From a virus, in IMG/VR virus record IMGVR_UViG_3300034106_000032, positions 1 through 24,243 of that record: a stretch of 24,243 bases of DNA. One strand, written 5' to 3'. The notes under the pieces are model-generated. The model did no database searches, was not told the origin of the DNA, and saw only the letters and a list, made by a program, of their open reading frames with translations. Below are positions 3,811-24,243 of this stretch, piece by piece. The first letter of the stretch is position 1, and each line of letters opens with the position of its first letter. A program made the position numbers and the translations under genes.

Positions 3811-3967
3811 AATTTTGACTGCCCAAGCCAAACAATTGGAATTAAGCCTCCATGCGATTGGCGGGGCAATTCAAGACTGCCAATATTGGCTAAACCAATT
3901 GGAGAGCAAAGATGCCGCTGATCAAGTCAATGACACCCAAGGCGCTGAAGCAGAACATCAAGGCTGA
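3779..3967 (+). CDS. Small helical hypothetical protein
   Basis: A 62-residue protein overlapping its neighbours at both ends (32 and 56 bases). It consists of one long amphipathic helix, IKARIEILTAQAKQLELSLH, then a shorter one with DCQYWLNQLES, and a polar tail. This is typical of small phage proteins that form helical hairpins or coiled coils. No motif identifies a function. The overlap with a well-recognised gene at 3912 is in another frame and covers only the polar tail, so both are compatible. Confidence 0.6.
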   Translation: MTTDQIKARIEILTAQAKQLELSLHAIGGAIQDCQYWLNQLESKDAADQVNDTQGAEAEHQG

Positions 3968-4061
3968 AATAGAAGCTGGCAAGCCTGTTAAGCAGGCTGT
4001 TGCCATTGGCTATTCGGTTAAGCGTGAAGCTGAAAAGGCTAAAAAGCCAAAGAAGAAGTAA
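3912..4061 (+). CDS. Small Lys-rich conserved phage protein
   Basis: A 49-codon frame with start ATG at 3912 and TAA at 4059-4061; the next gene's ATG follows with no gap. The protein reads MPLIKSMTPKALKQNIKAEI, then EAGKPVKQAVAIGYSVKRE, and ends in a Lys-rich tail. The pattern of a short KS segment, a KAEIEAGKPxKQAVAI helix and YSVKR is one I recognise as a recurrent tiny phage protein. Function unknown; its strong basicity would suit nucleic-acid binding. It overlaps the previous gene by 56 bases. Confidence 0.72.
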   Translation: MPLIKSMTPKALKQNIKAEIEAGKPVKQAVAIGYSVKREAEKAKKPKKK

Positions 4062-5000
4062 ATGCCAACCCTTGCGGACATATATAGCGCAATTGACACT
4101 GCCAAGCGCAAAGCATCGGATTTTGTACAGAATCCCGGCACTAGCTTGCAGCAGATGGTTGGTAATGCAAATGACCGCGCAAGGGTTTACAACCAACAAT
4201 TAAGTTTGGCGGCGCAGGGAACAGGTGCGCCAGCTAGGGGAATGCAACCCACGCCAGAACAAATGGCGGCTGATAAATATGTGACGCAAACAATAGCTGA
4301 TGCCTACAACCCTGTGGGCATGACTGTGTTTCATGGGTCACCTCATTTATTTGCAAAGTTTGATGCCTCAAAAATTGGCACTGGAACTGGGCAACAAGTT
4401 TATGGCAAAGGGTTTTATCTTGCTGAATCACCGGCCACAGCAAACGAATACAAAATTAATTTATCTGGGTATTCTTCTGGCGCTAAATCAGCTTTACGCC
4501 AAAACAACAACAATTTTGATGAAGCCATTGCCGCGCAAAATCAAAAATTACAGCATTACAAGGATTTAATTGCTTCAGGTGGTGGTGGCGACATTAATAG
4601 AGCAAACAGTTTTCTTCAATTGACAGAAAAAAATATCCAAGACTTGCAAACAATGAAGCAGGGTGTTGCTGAAAACAAAGGCGGCTTCTATAAAGTAGAT
4701 TTGCCTGACACCCATGTAAGAAGAATGTTGGATTTTGATGCGCCATTGAAAAACCAGCCTAAACCAATCCGCAACCTTGCCAAATCATTGGGTATGGATA
4801 TGAATGATCTTGGTGGCGATTTAATTGTAAAAATTGGCAAAGGTGATGAGGGCAAGAAGATTTTGCAAGATGCTGGCATCCCCGGCGTTAAGTACTACAA
4901 TGAAATGAAAGGTGGCCCTGCACAATGGAAACGCAATTTTGTTGTGTTTGACCCAAAGCACCTTACCATTCTTGAACGTAACAGCCAGCCAATCAAATGA
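4062..5000 (+). CDS. ADP-ribosyltransferase-fold protein, polyvalent (ART-PolyVal) type
   Basis: A 312-residue protein. The N-terminal 85 residues (LADIYSAIDTAKRKASDFVQ, then NPGTSLQQM) are helical and may direct it to a complex or the virion. From residue 88 it shows the ADP-ribosyltransferase layout: TVFHGSPHLF with candidate NAD-binding His91, FDASKIGTGTGQQVYGKG, then GFYLAES with Tyr119. Further on are GFYKVDLPD (208-216), AGIPGVKYYN (271-280) and NFVVFDPKHLTILERN near the end. This matches ART domains found in phage and plasmid polyvalent proteins. The family transfers ADP-ribose from NAD to a target, so this protein could modify host proteins early in infection. Residues 130-205 form a less conserved helical insert. 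The gene joins TerS by an ATGA overlap. The target, and whether the protein is packaged, are unknown. Confidence 0.8.
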   Translation: MPTLADIYSAIDTAKRKASDFVQNPGTSLQQMVGNANDRARVYNQQLSLAAQGTGAPARGMQPTPEQMAADKYVTQTIADAYNPVGMTVFHGSPHLFAKFDASKIGTGTGQQVYGKGFYLAESPATANEYKINLSGYSSGAKSALRQNNNNFDEAIAAQNQKLQHYKDLIASGGGGDINRANSFLQLTEKNIQDLQTMKQGVAENKGGFYKVDLPDTHVRRMLDFDAPLKNQPKPIRNLAKSLGMDMNDLGGDLIVKIGKGDEGKKILQDAGIPGVKYYNEMKGGPAQWKRNFVVFDPKHLTILERNSQPIK

Positions 5001-5416
5001 CCGATACCGTACCCGTCCTAGAAAAGCGCCCAGTAGGTCGCCCAACCCTATATGACCCCGCATATTGCGAGACAGTCAGGGAACTAGGACGCATTGGCAA
5101 ATCCATTGAACAAATCTGCTATCAATTAAACATAAGTATTAGAACCATTTACTTATGGAAAGACACGCATGAAGAATTTATGCAAGCCTTGGAAGATGCA
5201 AAGACATTTGAGCAGGCATGGTGGGAAGAACAAGCCGCTGCTTACATGGTGGAGAACAAAGAAAGTGACCGACTGAACGCCACGCTATGGTCAAGGTCAA
5301 TGGCTGCAAGGTTTCCAAAGAAGTACAGGGAAAGCACAAAGCAAGAGATTACAGGTGCAGACGGTGCGCCATTGCTTACAGGTATTCAGGTGACATTTGT
5401 GAAGCCCAATGAGTGA
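4997..5416 (+). CDS. Terminase small subunit (Sf6 gp1-like)
   Basis: A 139-residue protein immediately before the large terminase. It has GRPTLYDP at residues 14-21, a helix-turn-helix at about 36-57 (SIEQICYQLNISIRTIYLWK), a long helical core rich in aromatic and acidic residues (HEEFMQALEDAKTFEQAWWE), LNATLWSRSMAARFPKKY and a final GADGAPLLTGIQVTF strand. Order and length agree with the Sf6 gp1-type small terminases, in which the N-terminal domain binds the packaging site and the helical core forms a ring. It recognises phage DNA and delivers it to the large subunit. Start and stop overlap the neighbours by 4 and 8 bases. Confidence 0.9.
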   Translation: MTDTVPVLEKRPVGRPTLYDPAYCETVRELGRIGKSIEQICYQLNISIRTIYLWKDTHEEFMQALEDAKTFEQAWWEEQAAAYMVENKESDRLNATLWSRSMAARFPKKYRESTKQEITGADGAPLLTGIQVTFVKPNE

Positions 5417-6683
5417 TGTATCAAGCGCCATTGCCAATGCTGAATTCCCGATCAAGCTGCAAGGCTTGTTCAAGCCATCACGCTATAAGGTAGCCTACGG
5501 CGGCAGGGGTGGGGCTAAGTCTTGGGGGATAGCTAGGGCGCTACTGATTAAAGGCGCTAAAGAGCCGCTACGCATACTTTGTGCGCGGGAATTCCAGACC
5601 AGTATTAGGGATTCAGTACACAAGCTATTGTGTGACCAGATTGAAACCCTTGGATTGCTGGGTTTCTATGAAATCACCCAAAACAGCATCAGGGGCAAGA
5701 ACGGCACAGAGTTCGCCTTTGCTGGCCTCAAGAACAACATTGCCAACATCAAATCCTATGAGGGTGTAGACATTTGCTGGGTGGAAGAAGCGCAGACCAC
5801 CAGCCGCCTTAGTTGGAATGTGTTGATCCCTACCATCCGAAAGCAGGGCAGCGAGATATGGATTTCGTTCAATCCTGAGTTGGAGACAGACGAAACCTAT
5901 CAACGGTTTGTGATTAACCCGCCTGATGATTGCATCCAAATTAAGATCAACTGGTCGGACAACCCTTGGTTTCCTGAAACGCTGAAGCTGGAAAAGGATG
6001 CACTAAAGAGCCGCGACCAAGAAGCCTATAACCAAGTCTGGGAGGGCTTATGCCGCCAATCAGTCGATGGGGCTATCTTTGCCAAGGAACTTCAGCAAGC
6101 AGAGATTGAGGGCAGGCTAACCCGTGTGGCCTATGACGCAACAAAGCCCGTTCACGCAATATTTGACCTTGGCTGGTCTGATAGCACATCAATCTGGTTC
6201 TTGCAGTTTGTGGGCATGGAAACACGCCTTATTCGATACATCGAAGACAGCCAAAAGACCATGACGCATTACTTGGCAACCATGCAGACGTTTGGTTATG
6301 TGTACGACACGGTTTGGTTGCCCCATGATGCTGAGAACCAGACACTGGCAGCGGCTGGGCGTTCCATTGATGACATTGTGAGGGCGGTAGGCTACAAGAC
6401 GCGGATTCTGCCCAAAGTGCCTATTCTGGATTCAATCAACGCAGCTAGAACAATATTTCCAAGCTGCTGGTTCGACCGTGAACACGCCGCAGAGGGCATT
6501 AACTGCCTGCGCCACTACCGATATGAAGTTGATCCAGACACAGGGCAATTCAGCCGCAACCCATTGCACGACCATTATTCGCACGGGGCAGACGCATTTC
6601 GCTACATTGCCCTGATGATTCAAGACACACCAAAGCGCAAGCCAAAGGCACAGGTTGCAATGGCTGGCGGTTGGATGGGATAA
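5409..6683 (+). CDS. Terminase large subunit
   Basis: A 424-residue ATPase-nuclease motor. The ATPase half shows Walker A GGRGGAKS (31-38), Walker B VDICWVEEA (120-128) with the catalytic Glu, and the coupling motif SFNP (153-156). The nuclease half has FDLGWSDS with Asp253, PHDAEN with Asp307, and HDHYSHGADAFRY (388-399) with the third acidic cluster; these match the metal-binding acids of the RNase-H-like fold. The enzyme pumps DNA through the portal and cuts it at the start and end of packaging. Length is typical, and the protein looks complete. It follows TerS with an 8-base overlap and precedes the portal gene by 18 bases, the canonical packaging order. Confidence 0.96.
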   Translation: MSDVSSAIANAEFPIKLQGLFKPSRYKVAYGGRGGAKSWGIARALLIKGAKEPLRILCAREFQTSIRDSVHKLLCDQIETLGLLGFYEITQNSIRGKNGTEFAFAGLKNNIANIKSYEGVDICWVEEAQTTSRLSWNVLIPTIRKQGSEIWISFNPELETDETYQRFVINPPDDCIQIKINWSDNPWFPETLKLEKDALKSRDQEAYNQVWEGLCRQSVDGAIFAKELQQAEIEGRLTRVAYDATKPVHAIFDLGWSDSTSIWFLQFVGMETRLIRYIEDSQKTMTHYLATMQTFGYVYDTVWLPHDAENQTLAAAGRSIDDIVRAVGYKTRILPKVPILDSINAARTIFPSCWFDREHAAEGINCLRHYRYEVDPDTGQFSRNPLHDHYSHGADAFRYIALMIQDTPKRKPKAQVAMAGGWMG

Positions 6684-6701: not shown

Positions 6702-8897
6702 ATGGCATACCAAGACGCAGCAGGCAAAGACAACAGAATTAACAAAGCCATAGAGTTTTGGCGGTTGGTCAATGACGCAGATTCAACCAACCGTGCCGAA
6801 GCATTGCAAGACATTAAGTTTGCTGCTGGCGACCAATGGCCTGTTGAGATTCAAAACAGCAGAAACGTGGAAGCACGACCATGCCTGACCATCAACAAGA
6901 TTGATGCCTATGTGCGACAGGTAACCAACCAACAGCGGATGCAGCGCCCACGCATTAAAGTGCATCCTGTGAATAACTTGGCTGATTACAAGATTGCCCA
7001 AGTCATTGAGGGCATGACACGCCATATTGAAGTCAATTCAAACGCTGATACTGCTTACGATACCGCCTTTGATTACGCTGTGCGGATGGGTTGGGGCTAT
7101 TGGCGCATCAATACACGCTATGTCAGCGAAGATTCATTTGACCAAGAAATCTACATCGACACGATTGACAACCCGTTCACCGTGTACTTTGACCCCAATT
7201 CAATCCTGCCTGATGGGTCAGACGCTGAACGTTGCCTGATTACCACGGTTCTGGATAAAAAGGTTTTCAAGGATTACTACCCCGGCGCTGATGATGGGGC
7301 TAACTTTACCCAGCGTTCTACGGGTGACGATACTGCAAGCTGGATTACCAAAGAAGACATCCGCATTGCTGAATTCTTTTATATTGAACGCGAACGTGCC
7401 AAGTTGTATTTGCTGAGTGATGGCACACGCCAATTTGCTGACTCTGACCGATTCTTTGAACGGGTTGAAGCCGCTGGCTTGACCGTGGTTGATGAACGCG
7501 ACAGCTTCCGCAAGGCGGTGAAGTGGGTCAAGATGACCGCCTTAGAAATCTTGGAAGAAAAGACATGGGCTGGCAAATACATCCCTGTTGTGCCTTGCTA
7601 TGGCGCACAGGTTATCGTTGACGATAAGCGCAAGAAGTACGGGTTGGTGCGGTTTGCCAAAGACCCACAGCGTATGTATAACTTCTGGCGCACGTCCATG
7701 ACCGAATCGGTTGCCCTTGCACCAAAGGCCAAATGGCTTTTGGCAGAGGGTCAAGACGAGGGTCACGAAAACGAATGGGCGCTGGCTAACATCAAATCTA
7801 GCCCTGTCCTGCGGTACAAGCAGAAAGACATTGAGGGCGTACCAGCCCCAGTGCCAACCCGTTTGCAACCAGAACCACCGCCTGCTGGCATTATGGAAGC
7901 CGCTGGCGCTATTTCCGCTGACTTGCAGATGGTGCTGGGCATCCTTGATCCCAACCAGTTACCAAGTGGCAACATATCAGGGAAAGCCCTACAAGGTCAG
8001 CAAAACCAGACTGATTTAAGCAATTTCCACTTTTATGACAACATGACCCGATCAATCAGGCATACAGGCAAAATCCTGTTGGACTTGATACCCAAGATTT
8101 ATGACACCCAAAGGGTAATGCGGATCATTGGTTCAGACGGTCAACCAGACATGACCACCATTAATGAAAAGAACGAAGTTAATGAGGTTTTGAATGATGT
8201 GACTGTGGGTGAATATGATGTGGTGATGGACACAGGGCCGGGCTTCCAATCCAAGCGCCAGCAAGCAGTCGAAGCCATGATGCCTTTGCTGACAGGCAAT
8301 GAACAGTTGTTCAATATTGCGGGTGACTTGGTGTTTAGGAATATGGACTTCCCCGGCGCTGATGTAATTGCTGACCGCCTTGCCGCCATGAACCCAATGG
8401 CTAATATTGATGAGAAGTCAGATATACCGCCTGAAATTCAGATGCGTCTGGCGCAATCTCAGCAACAACTGCAAGAGATGCAGCAGCAATTGCAGGCCGC
8501 GATGTTGGAGATTAACAACCGTGGTCAGGTTGCCCAAATCCGCGAGGAGGGCGCTACTAGACGCAAACTTATGGACGTTACCGCACGGGCGCACAACACA
8601 GAAACCATCAACGAAGCCAAGGTCAATCAAACCAATCTCAATGCCATTACCAGCCAAAACAAGACTGAAATCGATGCGTTGGTCAAAATGCTTATTGCAA
8701 GAATGCCAGCCGATCAGTTGATGATGGAGATTGACCGCCTGAACGCTGAACAGCAACAGTTTGCAATGGCTGCCGCGCAAGACATTTCGCACGAGGCAAA
8801 CCCATTCATCAACCCACAACAAATGCAACAACAAATGCAGCCGCAAGAACCAATGCAGCCGCCAATGCAACAATCATTTGAGCAACCCATGCAATGA
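6702..8897 (+). CDS. Portal protein (P22 gp1-like)
   Basis: A 731-residue protein, close to the 725 of P22 portal. The N-terminal part has FAAGDQWP, RPCLTINKID and YVRQVTNQQRMQRPRI, a string shared by P22-type portals. The middle contains the long alpha/beta body of the wing and stem, with FDPNSILPDGSDAE and GNISGKALQGQQNQTDLSNF as further recognisable family pieces. The last 130 residues are helical, then Gln/Met/Pro-rich, corresponding to the barrel region of P22 portal. Twelve copies would form the unique capsid vertex through which DNA enters and to which the neck proteins attach. AAAGGGG precedes the ATG. Downstream, an 81-base gap with palindromes separates it from the scaffold. Confidence 0.95.
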   Translation: MAYQDAAGKDNRINKAIEFWRLVNDADSTNRAEALQDIKFAAGDQWPVEIQNSRNVEARPCLTINKIDAYVRQVTNQQRMQRPRIKVHPVNNLADYKIAQVIEGMTRHIEVNSNADTAYDTAFDYAVRMGWGYWRINTRYVSEDSFDQEIYIDTIDNPFTVYFDPNSILPDGSDAERCLITTVLDKKVFKDYYPGADDGANFTQRSTGDDTASWITKEDIRIAEFFYIERERAKLYLLSDGTRQFADSDRFFERVEAAGLTVVDERDSFRKAVKWVKMTALEILEEKTWAGKYIPVVPCYGAQVIVDDKRKKYGLVRFAKDPQRMYNFWRTSMTESVALAPKAKWLLAEGQDEGHENEWALANIKSSPVLRYKQKDIEGVPAPVPTRLQPEPPPAGIMEAAGAISADLQMVLGILDPNQLPSGNISGKALQGQQNQTDLSNFHFYDNMTRSIRHTGKILLDLIPKIYDTQRVMRIIGSDGQPDMTTINEKNEVNEVLNDVTVGEYDVVMDTGPGFQSKRQQAVEAMMPLLTGNEQLFNIAGDLVFRNMDFPGADVIADRLAAMNPMANIDEKSDIPPEIQMRLAQSQQQLQEMQQQLQAAMLEINNRGQVAQIREEGATRRKLMDVTARAHNTETINEAKVNQTNLNAITSQNKTEIDALVKMLIARMPADQLMMEIDRLNAEQQQFAMAAAQDISHEANPFINPQQMQQQMQPQEPMQPPMQQSFEQPMQ
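8811..8880 (+). repeat. CAA/CAG/ATG-rich low-complexity end of the portal gene
   Basis: Bases here are made of repeated CAACAAATG, CAGCCG and CAACAA units and encode a Gln/Met/Pro-rich tail. It is simple-sequence DNA within the coding region rather than an independent element. The tail probably lies at the end of the portal barrel inside the head. Confidence 0.7.
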
Positions 8898-22921: not shown

Positions 22922-24243
22922 ATGGATGCCTTAGAAAAATTCCTTGGAGGTGGTCAAGCTGTTGCTGAGCCGCCTAAGAAATCAGGTGGTCAAATTCCAT
23001 CAGATGCACAAGCCAAGCGCGAACAAATTGCATTGGCAATGATTAAAGAAGAATTGCGGAAAAACCAAGAATTGGCAGCACAGGGCAATAAAGAAGCGCA
23101 AATAAATGTTGCTGCATTAAAACGTGAAATTGCCCGTTTTGAAAAAAAATTACCAGCGGCAGCAAAAGCCGCCCCTGCCGCCCCTGTTGCCCAAGCTACC
23201 ACATCTGATCCGCTAGAGGCGTTCTTGTCTGGTAAGCCTGCGCCCGCAGCACAACCAGTAGCGCAACCAGCAGCGCAGTCAACAACACAACCAGCGGCAG
23301 TTTCTGGGTCTAATCGTTATCAAGGTTACTCTGCTGCTGAAGAACAAAAAGCTGGCAAGGTCAAACAAAAAGTTCCAATGGTGCGGCAGATTCTGACTAA
23401 TGCATTGACAATGGCAACGCCAATGGTGCAACCTAAATCACCTGATTTGGCGCAAAGAATTGCTGGCGCTGTTGATACTATTTATGAGGTTTTGCCTACT
23501 GCTTATGGTGCGGTGCAACAAGCTATTGTGCGCCCATTCACTACGCCTGCAAAAGCTGAAGAATTAGGCAAACAAGCTGGTCAATTTATGTTTCCAAGCC
23601 AACCTTTAGGTAAGGTTTTTGGTATCACAGGCAAAGAATCCTATCAGCAACCATTGGGTGGTGTGACTGAACCTATTGCTGAACAAATTAACAAAATGTT
23701 TAATGCAATGGGCATGACCCCAGAACAGATTTCAGAAACATTAAAGTCAAAATTTAATGTGACTTTACCGCCAGAAGACATAAGAAACATGGTGGTCATT
23801 GGATCAGCAGCCGTACCGCAAGCACTTAAAGAAGTCAAAAGCGCCGCGCAACCTTTGCGTGAAATAGCAAAAGATTTGGAAATTGTGCGTTCTGATACTA
23901 ATTTAAACAAACCTGTTAAAAGTGGCGGTTTAACATCAGAACAATTGCAAGCGCAATTCGAAGCTAGGGGCGGCAATTTAAAACAAAATGCCGAGCAGTT
24001 GAATCAAAACTATGAACAACAACGGGCAAGCACAACTGAAGCTCAGTCGGTTCAACAACCAATTTTAGACACAAATGGGCAAGTGATTGGACAAGCTGAC
24101 CTTGGTACGGCAAAACCAACACGCCCAAATTCTGAATTTAAGCCTGTTGAATATGCTGAAAATGGTTTGCCATTAGATGAACAGTTTGCAAGAGCAAAAG
24201 CTATGCAGCGGGTCTTAGGTGAAGACCATGCGGCTGATCTTGC
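22922..24243 (+). CDS. Large ejection protein, N-terminal 440 residues (position of P22 gp16; runs past window end)
   Basis: ATG at 22922 follows the previous TAA directly, and the frame stays open for 440 codons to the window edge. The N-terminus (MDALEKFLGGGQA) is followed by a charged helix (residues 30-78), an Ala/Pro/Gln-rich flexible stretch (79-128) and helical regions, including an amphipathic, fairly hydrophobic segment at about 150-205 (VRQILTNALTMATP, VDTIYEVLPTAYGAVQQAIV). The end (NGLPLDEQFARAKAMQRVLG followed by EDHAADL) is a pattern I associate with very large phage internal proteins. Position third in the ejection set suggests the role of P22 gp16, which enters the host envelope and helps DNA pass. 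Homology is not proven, and the catalytic or membrane parts, if any, may lie beyond the window. Confidence 0.75.
   Translation, partial: MDALEKFLGGGQAVAEPPKKSGGQIPSDAQAKREQIALAMIKEELRKNQELAAQGNKEAQINVAALKREIARFEKKLPAAAKAAPAAPVAQATTSDPLEAFLSGKPAPAAQPVAQPAAQSTTQPAAVSGSNRYQGYSAAEEQKAGKVKQKVPMVRQILTNALTMATPMVQPKSPDLAQRIAGAVDTIYEVLPTAYGAVQQAIVRPFTTPAKAEELGKQAGQFMFPSQPLGKVFGITGKESYQQPLGGVTEPIAEQINKMFNAMGMTPEQISETLKSKFNVTLPPEDIRNMVVIGSAAVPQALKEVKSAAQPLREIAKDLEIVRSDTNLNKPVKSGGLTSEQLQAQFEARGGNLKQNAEQLNQNYEQQRASTTEAQSVQQPILDTNGQVIGQADLGTAKPTRPNSEFKPVEYAENGLPLDEQFARAKAMQRVLGEDHAADL

Follow-up and report, generated by a model that had tools for sequence, protein, structure and literature searches.

A constant N-terminal module with exchangeable cargo domains beside the terminase genes of short-tailed phages

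A gene directly upstream of the terminase small subunit (TerS) of an uncultured virus encodes a protein of two parts, a previously undescribed helical module of ~86 residues followed by an ADP-ribosyltransferase (ART)-like domain, and this modular N-terminus is a new element that relatives carry in front of other domains. The virus contig, IMG/VR record IMGVR_UViG_3300034106_000032, was analysed over its whole length of 24,243 bases (hereafter the window) and belongs to a short-tailed water phage. We regard it as probable that the protein is a two-part effector, in which a MuF-like head-loading module is joined to a swappable, injected cargo. The constant module (first ~75-86 residues) would dock the protein at the portal or terminase side of the assembling head and thereby bring it into the virion, and the cargo would enter the next cell together with the DNA, where the PARP/ParT-like ART is predicted to use NAD+ as ADP-ribose donor for modifying a host macromolecule. 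Different cargo is recombined in behind the module, and the loading logic would be that of MuF-linked effectors, with a head piece that is unrelated and far shorter. This account draws on the constancy of the module across many cargoes, cargo swaps at the DNA level, selection on the module, the position in packaging or head operons and the structural match to 9k3a. Such an effector may serve host takeover or anti-defence, as suggested in an earlier note made from the sequence.

The module and its cargo

Some loci in the first search matched residues 1-~89 alone, with the remainder of the protein being different, and a module profile search of viral contigs gave 119 relatives, of which 80 were retrieved (cited here by L numbers). 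The profile found nothing in bacterial and archaeal genome contigs, the module had no match in isolate phages, and neither Pfam nor PHROG gave a significant match to it. A single module was present per contig in all 17 phage contigs searched (17/17). The module is under purifying selection, with a median ratio of nonsynonymous to synonymous substitution rates (dN/dS) of 0.139 across 739 pairs and of 0.145 between proteins with different cargoes. The earlier note had set the N-terminal ~85 residues apart as a possible packaging signal; their modularity is strongly supported, with the same piece carrying many unrelated cargoes.

Behind the module we distinguished seven cargo classes without BLAST similarity to each other, with the cargo of L033 counted separately: ART domains (43 loci), LPD23 domains (Pfam, best E 3.5e-13) together with a HELQH metallopeptidase, a domain designated 'YRAVP' that has a match in phrog_2579 (9e-31), GNAT, and three singletons (L027, L061, L100). 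The L100 cargo is itself an ART-PolyVal domain (40.5 bits), and the folds are therefore fewer than the classes. Cargo sequences match parts of families that comprise giant polyvalent or head-packaging proteins (phrog_873, 10691, 13543, 21376). An open 1405-amino-acid polyvalent-like protein (L195:2265-6476) contains the ART-like cargo of L033 at 64% identity, which suggests that cargo has been exchanged between giant and small effectors.

The clearest exchanges are found in six contigs (L051, L055, L142, L151, L156, L158), where the module DNA is 94-99% identical and the terminase large subunit (TerL) ~90-92% identical across four cargo classes. Their cargo DNA is unalignable between classes and 65% identical between L055 and L158, both of which carry ART. 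Identity across the six stays at 90-100% up to ~codon 70 and reaches background by ~codon 90. On a 65-row TerL tree, cargo class changes at least 22 times, against an average of 22.9 for shuffled labels; module distance tracks TerL distance (Mantel r 0.47, p 0.0005), whereas cargo class does not correlate with it (Mantel r -0.02, p 0.58). These comparisons show that recombination exchanges the cargo downstream of the module, whereas each phage lineage keeps its module, its terminase and its portal.

The ADP-ribosyltransferase-like cargo

Residues ~87-312 of the window protein appear to form a divergent ART-PolyVal-type ADP-ribosyltransferase, for which NAD-dependent activity is predicted. PF18760 (ART-PolyVal) matches from residue 87 in Pfam (E 1.6e-5), the 26.1 bits lying under the curated cut-off of 31.2 bits, and DUF3990 matches as well (1.2e-4). 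Relatives with the same module do pass the PF18760 cut-off, namely L100 and the contigs L021, L078 and L081 (33-37 bits). In PHROGs, residues 192-309 match phrog_873 at its C-terminal end; this family spans 1277 positions and belongs to the class head and packaging. Across 42 full-length ART-type sequences H91, G92, G108, G110, G117, Y119, Y210, N292 and F296 are invariant, and D297 is replaced by P in a subset. The motif series is thus not due to chance, given the Pfam matches, the relatives above the cut-off and the conservation in 42 sequences. The earlier note had named a polyvalent-type ART domain, and the Pfam match, the conserved motifs and the predicted fold bear this out; its motif series and its numbering of His91 and Tyr119 are correct. 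The call was right in kind and could have been foreseen from published surveys. As published context for head loading, no protein-modifying domain is more frequent in polyvalent proteins than the ART (PMC5512222), and the settings of ~44% of ARTs in phages hint at head packaging (PMC9503650).

The closest family is ART-PolyVal / Tox-ART-HYD2 (PF18760; Iyer 2017, PMC5512222), with which the cargo shares the HGS...YG.GxY...NFVVF series, a predicted ART fold and a phage head-gene context. The active site of that clade consists of H in strand 1, Y in strand 2 and D in strand 5 (PMC5512222). In the window protein an invariant strand residue, Asn (N292), is the candidate for the third position, and conservation does not extend to D297, the Asp that comes next. 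The protein further differs in being small and two-part, with one cargo domain behind the module, whereas typical members are long and carry several domains; two cargo domains are possible in L065 and L099. A PDB sequence search with the ART profile gave no match, nor did NCBIfam for the window protein, and PADLOC returned weak matches to candidate families alone (PDC-M42A, 1.3e-4).

An AlphaFold model of the window protein is confident in the core and weak at the N-terminus. The best solved match in VIA-align, and the closest solved fold, is residues 1418-1603 of the cyanophage A4 pre-ejectosome protein in PDB entry 9k3a (Z 9.4, 133 residues, 3.2 A; Hou 2025, cited in PMC12810830). The matched region lies within a large ejectosome protein, is 14% identical in sequence and may be read as an ART-like domain because other ARTs share the match. 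Next comes ParT (6d0h; Z 8.3, 126 residues), a Prs-modifying ART toxin that, unlike the window protein, is a toxin-antitoxin component with no N-terminal module and no phage head context, followed by tankyrase 2 (Z 8.2), diphtheria toxin (7.8) and MbcT (7.8). These matches make an ART fold of the modelled cargo likely.

Position in the packaging operon

The open reading frame (ORF) proposed in the earlier note is real, stays open over 312 residues and shares an ATGA with the start of TerS (Table 1). It had been described as fused to the packaging operon; it does lie within that operon, as a separate gene and not as a fusion. The gene is probably translationally coupled to TerS, and gene order suggests that it is expressed late. 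In many relatives, too, a homologue of the 49-residue ORF lies upstream.

Table 1. Features of the effector gene and its surroundings in the window
Feature	Position	Strand	Remarks
Upstream ORF, 49 amino acids (MPLIKSMTPKALKQ...)	3912..4061	+	TAA directly precedes effector ATG
Effector gene (constant N-terminal module and ART cargo), 312 amino acids	4062..5000	+	
N-terminal module, residues 1-87 (MPTLADIYSAI...AYNPVGM)	4062..4322	+	predicted all-helical; common to proteins with other cargo
Junction zone, codons ~71-91	4272..4334	+	identity across cargo classes drops from >90% to background
ART (ADP-ribosyltransferase-like) cargo domain	4323..4997	+	variable helical insert at ~residues 135-205
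His91 codon	4332..4334	+	invariant in 42-row alignment
Tyr119 codon	4416..4418	+	invariant in 42-row alignment
Asn292 codon	4935..4937	+	invariant; candidate third active-site position
ATGA stop/start overlap, effector/TerS	4997..5000	+	
TerS	4997..5416	+	PHROG 309, 6e-23
TerL	5409..6683	+	Terminase_3, 1.5e-39
P22-type portal protein	6702..8897	+	1.9e-175

Among 68 module loci surveyed, the next gene is TerS in most and TerS or portal in nearly all, and 37 have an ATGA-type overlap with it. In L019-L022 and L028-L029, which together make up one clade of close relatives, the effector sits between TerL and portal. Another lineage (L193 and others) has a distant version of the module (hhalign probability 91%, pairwise P 1.2e-6, 40% identical across 65 columns), encoded immediately behind a different portal of 702 residues or one gene further on, and before putative scaffold and capsid genes; there, portals that are 91-100% identical go with five unrelated further cargoes.

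Such a position and coupling would also give co-expression and local binding to an effector that acts late in the producing cell without being packaged, its module docking to TerS, TerL, portal or another phage partner and its cargo acting before lysis to block host functions or superinfecting phages. The conservation of the module along with the terminase lineage fits this alternative too. However, the types of cargo have their matches among the domains of polyvalent or head-packaging proteins, and the location of the distant version next to another portal, close to scaffold and capsid genes, points to a role in the head and not with TerS, so that we consider late action in the producing cell rather unlikely.

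The effector is accessory. Because most of the near TerL relatives are without the module (it is present in 11 of the 50 that have at least 1.5 kb upstream), sequence comparison indicates that it is not required for packaging; in the others the slot is empty or holds a ParB/methyltransferase gene or a protein with another constant head. Its adjoining TerS with an ATGA overlap might suggest that the protein is a component of the packaging machinery and modulates TerS or the terminase through ADP-ribosylation. The gene is absent, however, from L117 and L119, whose TerL are 96% identical, and in other phages a peptidase or acetyltransferase replaces the ART, and therefore packaging needs no ART activity. 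This terminase-modulator reading, which is scarcely credible, was set aside on account of the near relatives that have no such gene.

The varied contents of the slot, together with the exchange of TerS bodies, would agree with a recombination hotspot, where the module would be no more than a leader that has been retained, with good translation signals, and any short gene could settle at the site before TerS without a common trafficking route. We hold this to be quite improbable, given that the module protein is conserved (dN/dS ~0.14), occurs at several operon positions and in a second lineage with cargo swaps of its own, and is in frame with a cargo domain except at a few loci.

The pre-TerS slot is often taken by a gene for a ParB-N/DNA methyltransferase (VKITQKKVTELIPYVNNSRTHSD; L074:1464-2639, L141:2948-4147, L162:2948-4147), at times alongside the effector. 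A second, unrelated constant head (MADNRLSTFLPNRSVMG...) with different C-termini is found in the same slot (L168:151-2157, L170:2552-3886, L173:2552-3901, L169:90-1016, L167:739-3089); the ART protein of L169 may carry this head type, and L167 appears frameshifted. TerS proteins have unrelated bodies (a ~136-142-residue helix-turn-helix type, an 87-93-residue MAERG type, and types of ~160 and ~116 residues) and, in the window (4997-5416), L043, L049, L055, L064 and L072, share a C-terminal tail of ~20 residues, ADGxPLLxGIQVTFxKP, which is perhaps the part contacting TerL. Further downstream, an 877-residue protein (window 22922-24241 and L215:3430-6063) follows two likely ejection proteins; its portion inside the window had no significant Pfam match. 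A host lookup by portal search returned metagenome bins and distant matches only.

Relation to head-loaded effectors

MuF toxins join a constant N-terminal domain, encoded next to portal or terminase, to exchangeable C-terminal enzymes including ART and metallopeptidase, with one gene per phage, typically just after the portal (PMC5576092). The present effectors are alike in their constant N-terminal part, exchangeable C-terminal effectors and single gene per phage. They differ in the domain itself, for 72 modules gave no MuF match in Pfam or PHROGs at E 0.1 and the module is helical and ~86 residues long, and membership of the MuF family fails on this point. The window-lineage gene lies before TerS, whereas the second lineage occupies a MuF-like post-portal position; a small immunity-type ORF is not found directly downstream, where TerS or portal comes next at nearly all of the 68 loci; and the carriers are uncultured P22-portal phages, in contrast to the temperate Firmicutes phages with MuF. 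T4 Alt (PMC5512222) offers an analogy as a packaged and injected ADP-ribosyltransferase, and packaging and injection are what we propose here, although Alt belongs to the R-S-E clade and the window protein is of H-Y type. An ART protein with a different N-terminus of ~120 residues is encoded two genes after a P22-type portal in L111:4629-5792 (phiGT1_5, QLB38217); Sulfitobacter phage phiGT1 is thus an isolate with an ART protein in its head operon, and its virion mass spectrometry is published (PMC10386132).

Several points weigh against head loading and injection. The gene of the window lineage lies ahead of TerS and not after the portal, and the position beside the terminase could reflect a recombination hotspot because TerS is also exchanged. 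The module has no recognisable head-protein homologue in Pfam or PHROGs, and its predicted three-helix fold is of low confidence (predicted local distance difference test, pLDDT, 66; predicted template modelling score, pTM, 0.31). The N-terminal region was sought in other proteins of the same phages, as the earlier note had proposed for virion proteins, and none of these carries it. For the cargo, Foldseek alone gave no significant match (best ParT, E 0.14), and the fold-match Z of 7-9 is moderate.

Little is known about how small effectors reach the heads of phages with short tails, and a short, sequence-defined module with seven unrelated cargoes (twelve including the second lineage) makes the question testable by reporter fusions. 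It is quite possible, if short of probable, that the module represents a new and very short tag for loading proteins into virions, not related to MuF, that acts as a standard socket for interchangeable single-domain effectors in at least two phage lineages; fusion to it would then load a neutral small protein into the head. The module also provides a sequence handle for new phage effectors, each unknown domain behind it being a candidate host-directed enzyme.
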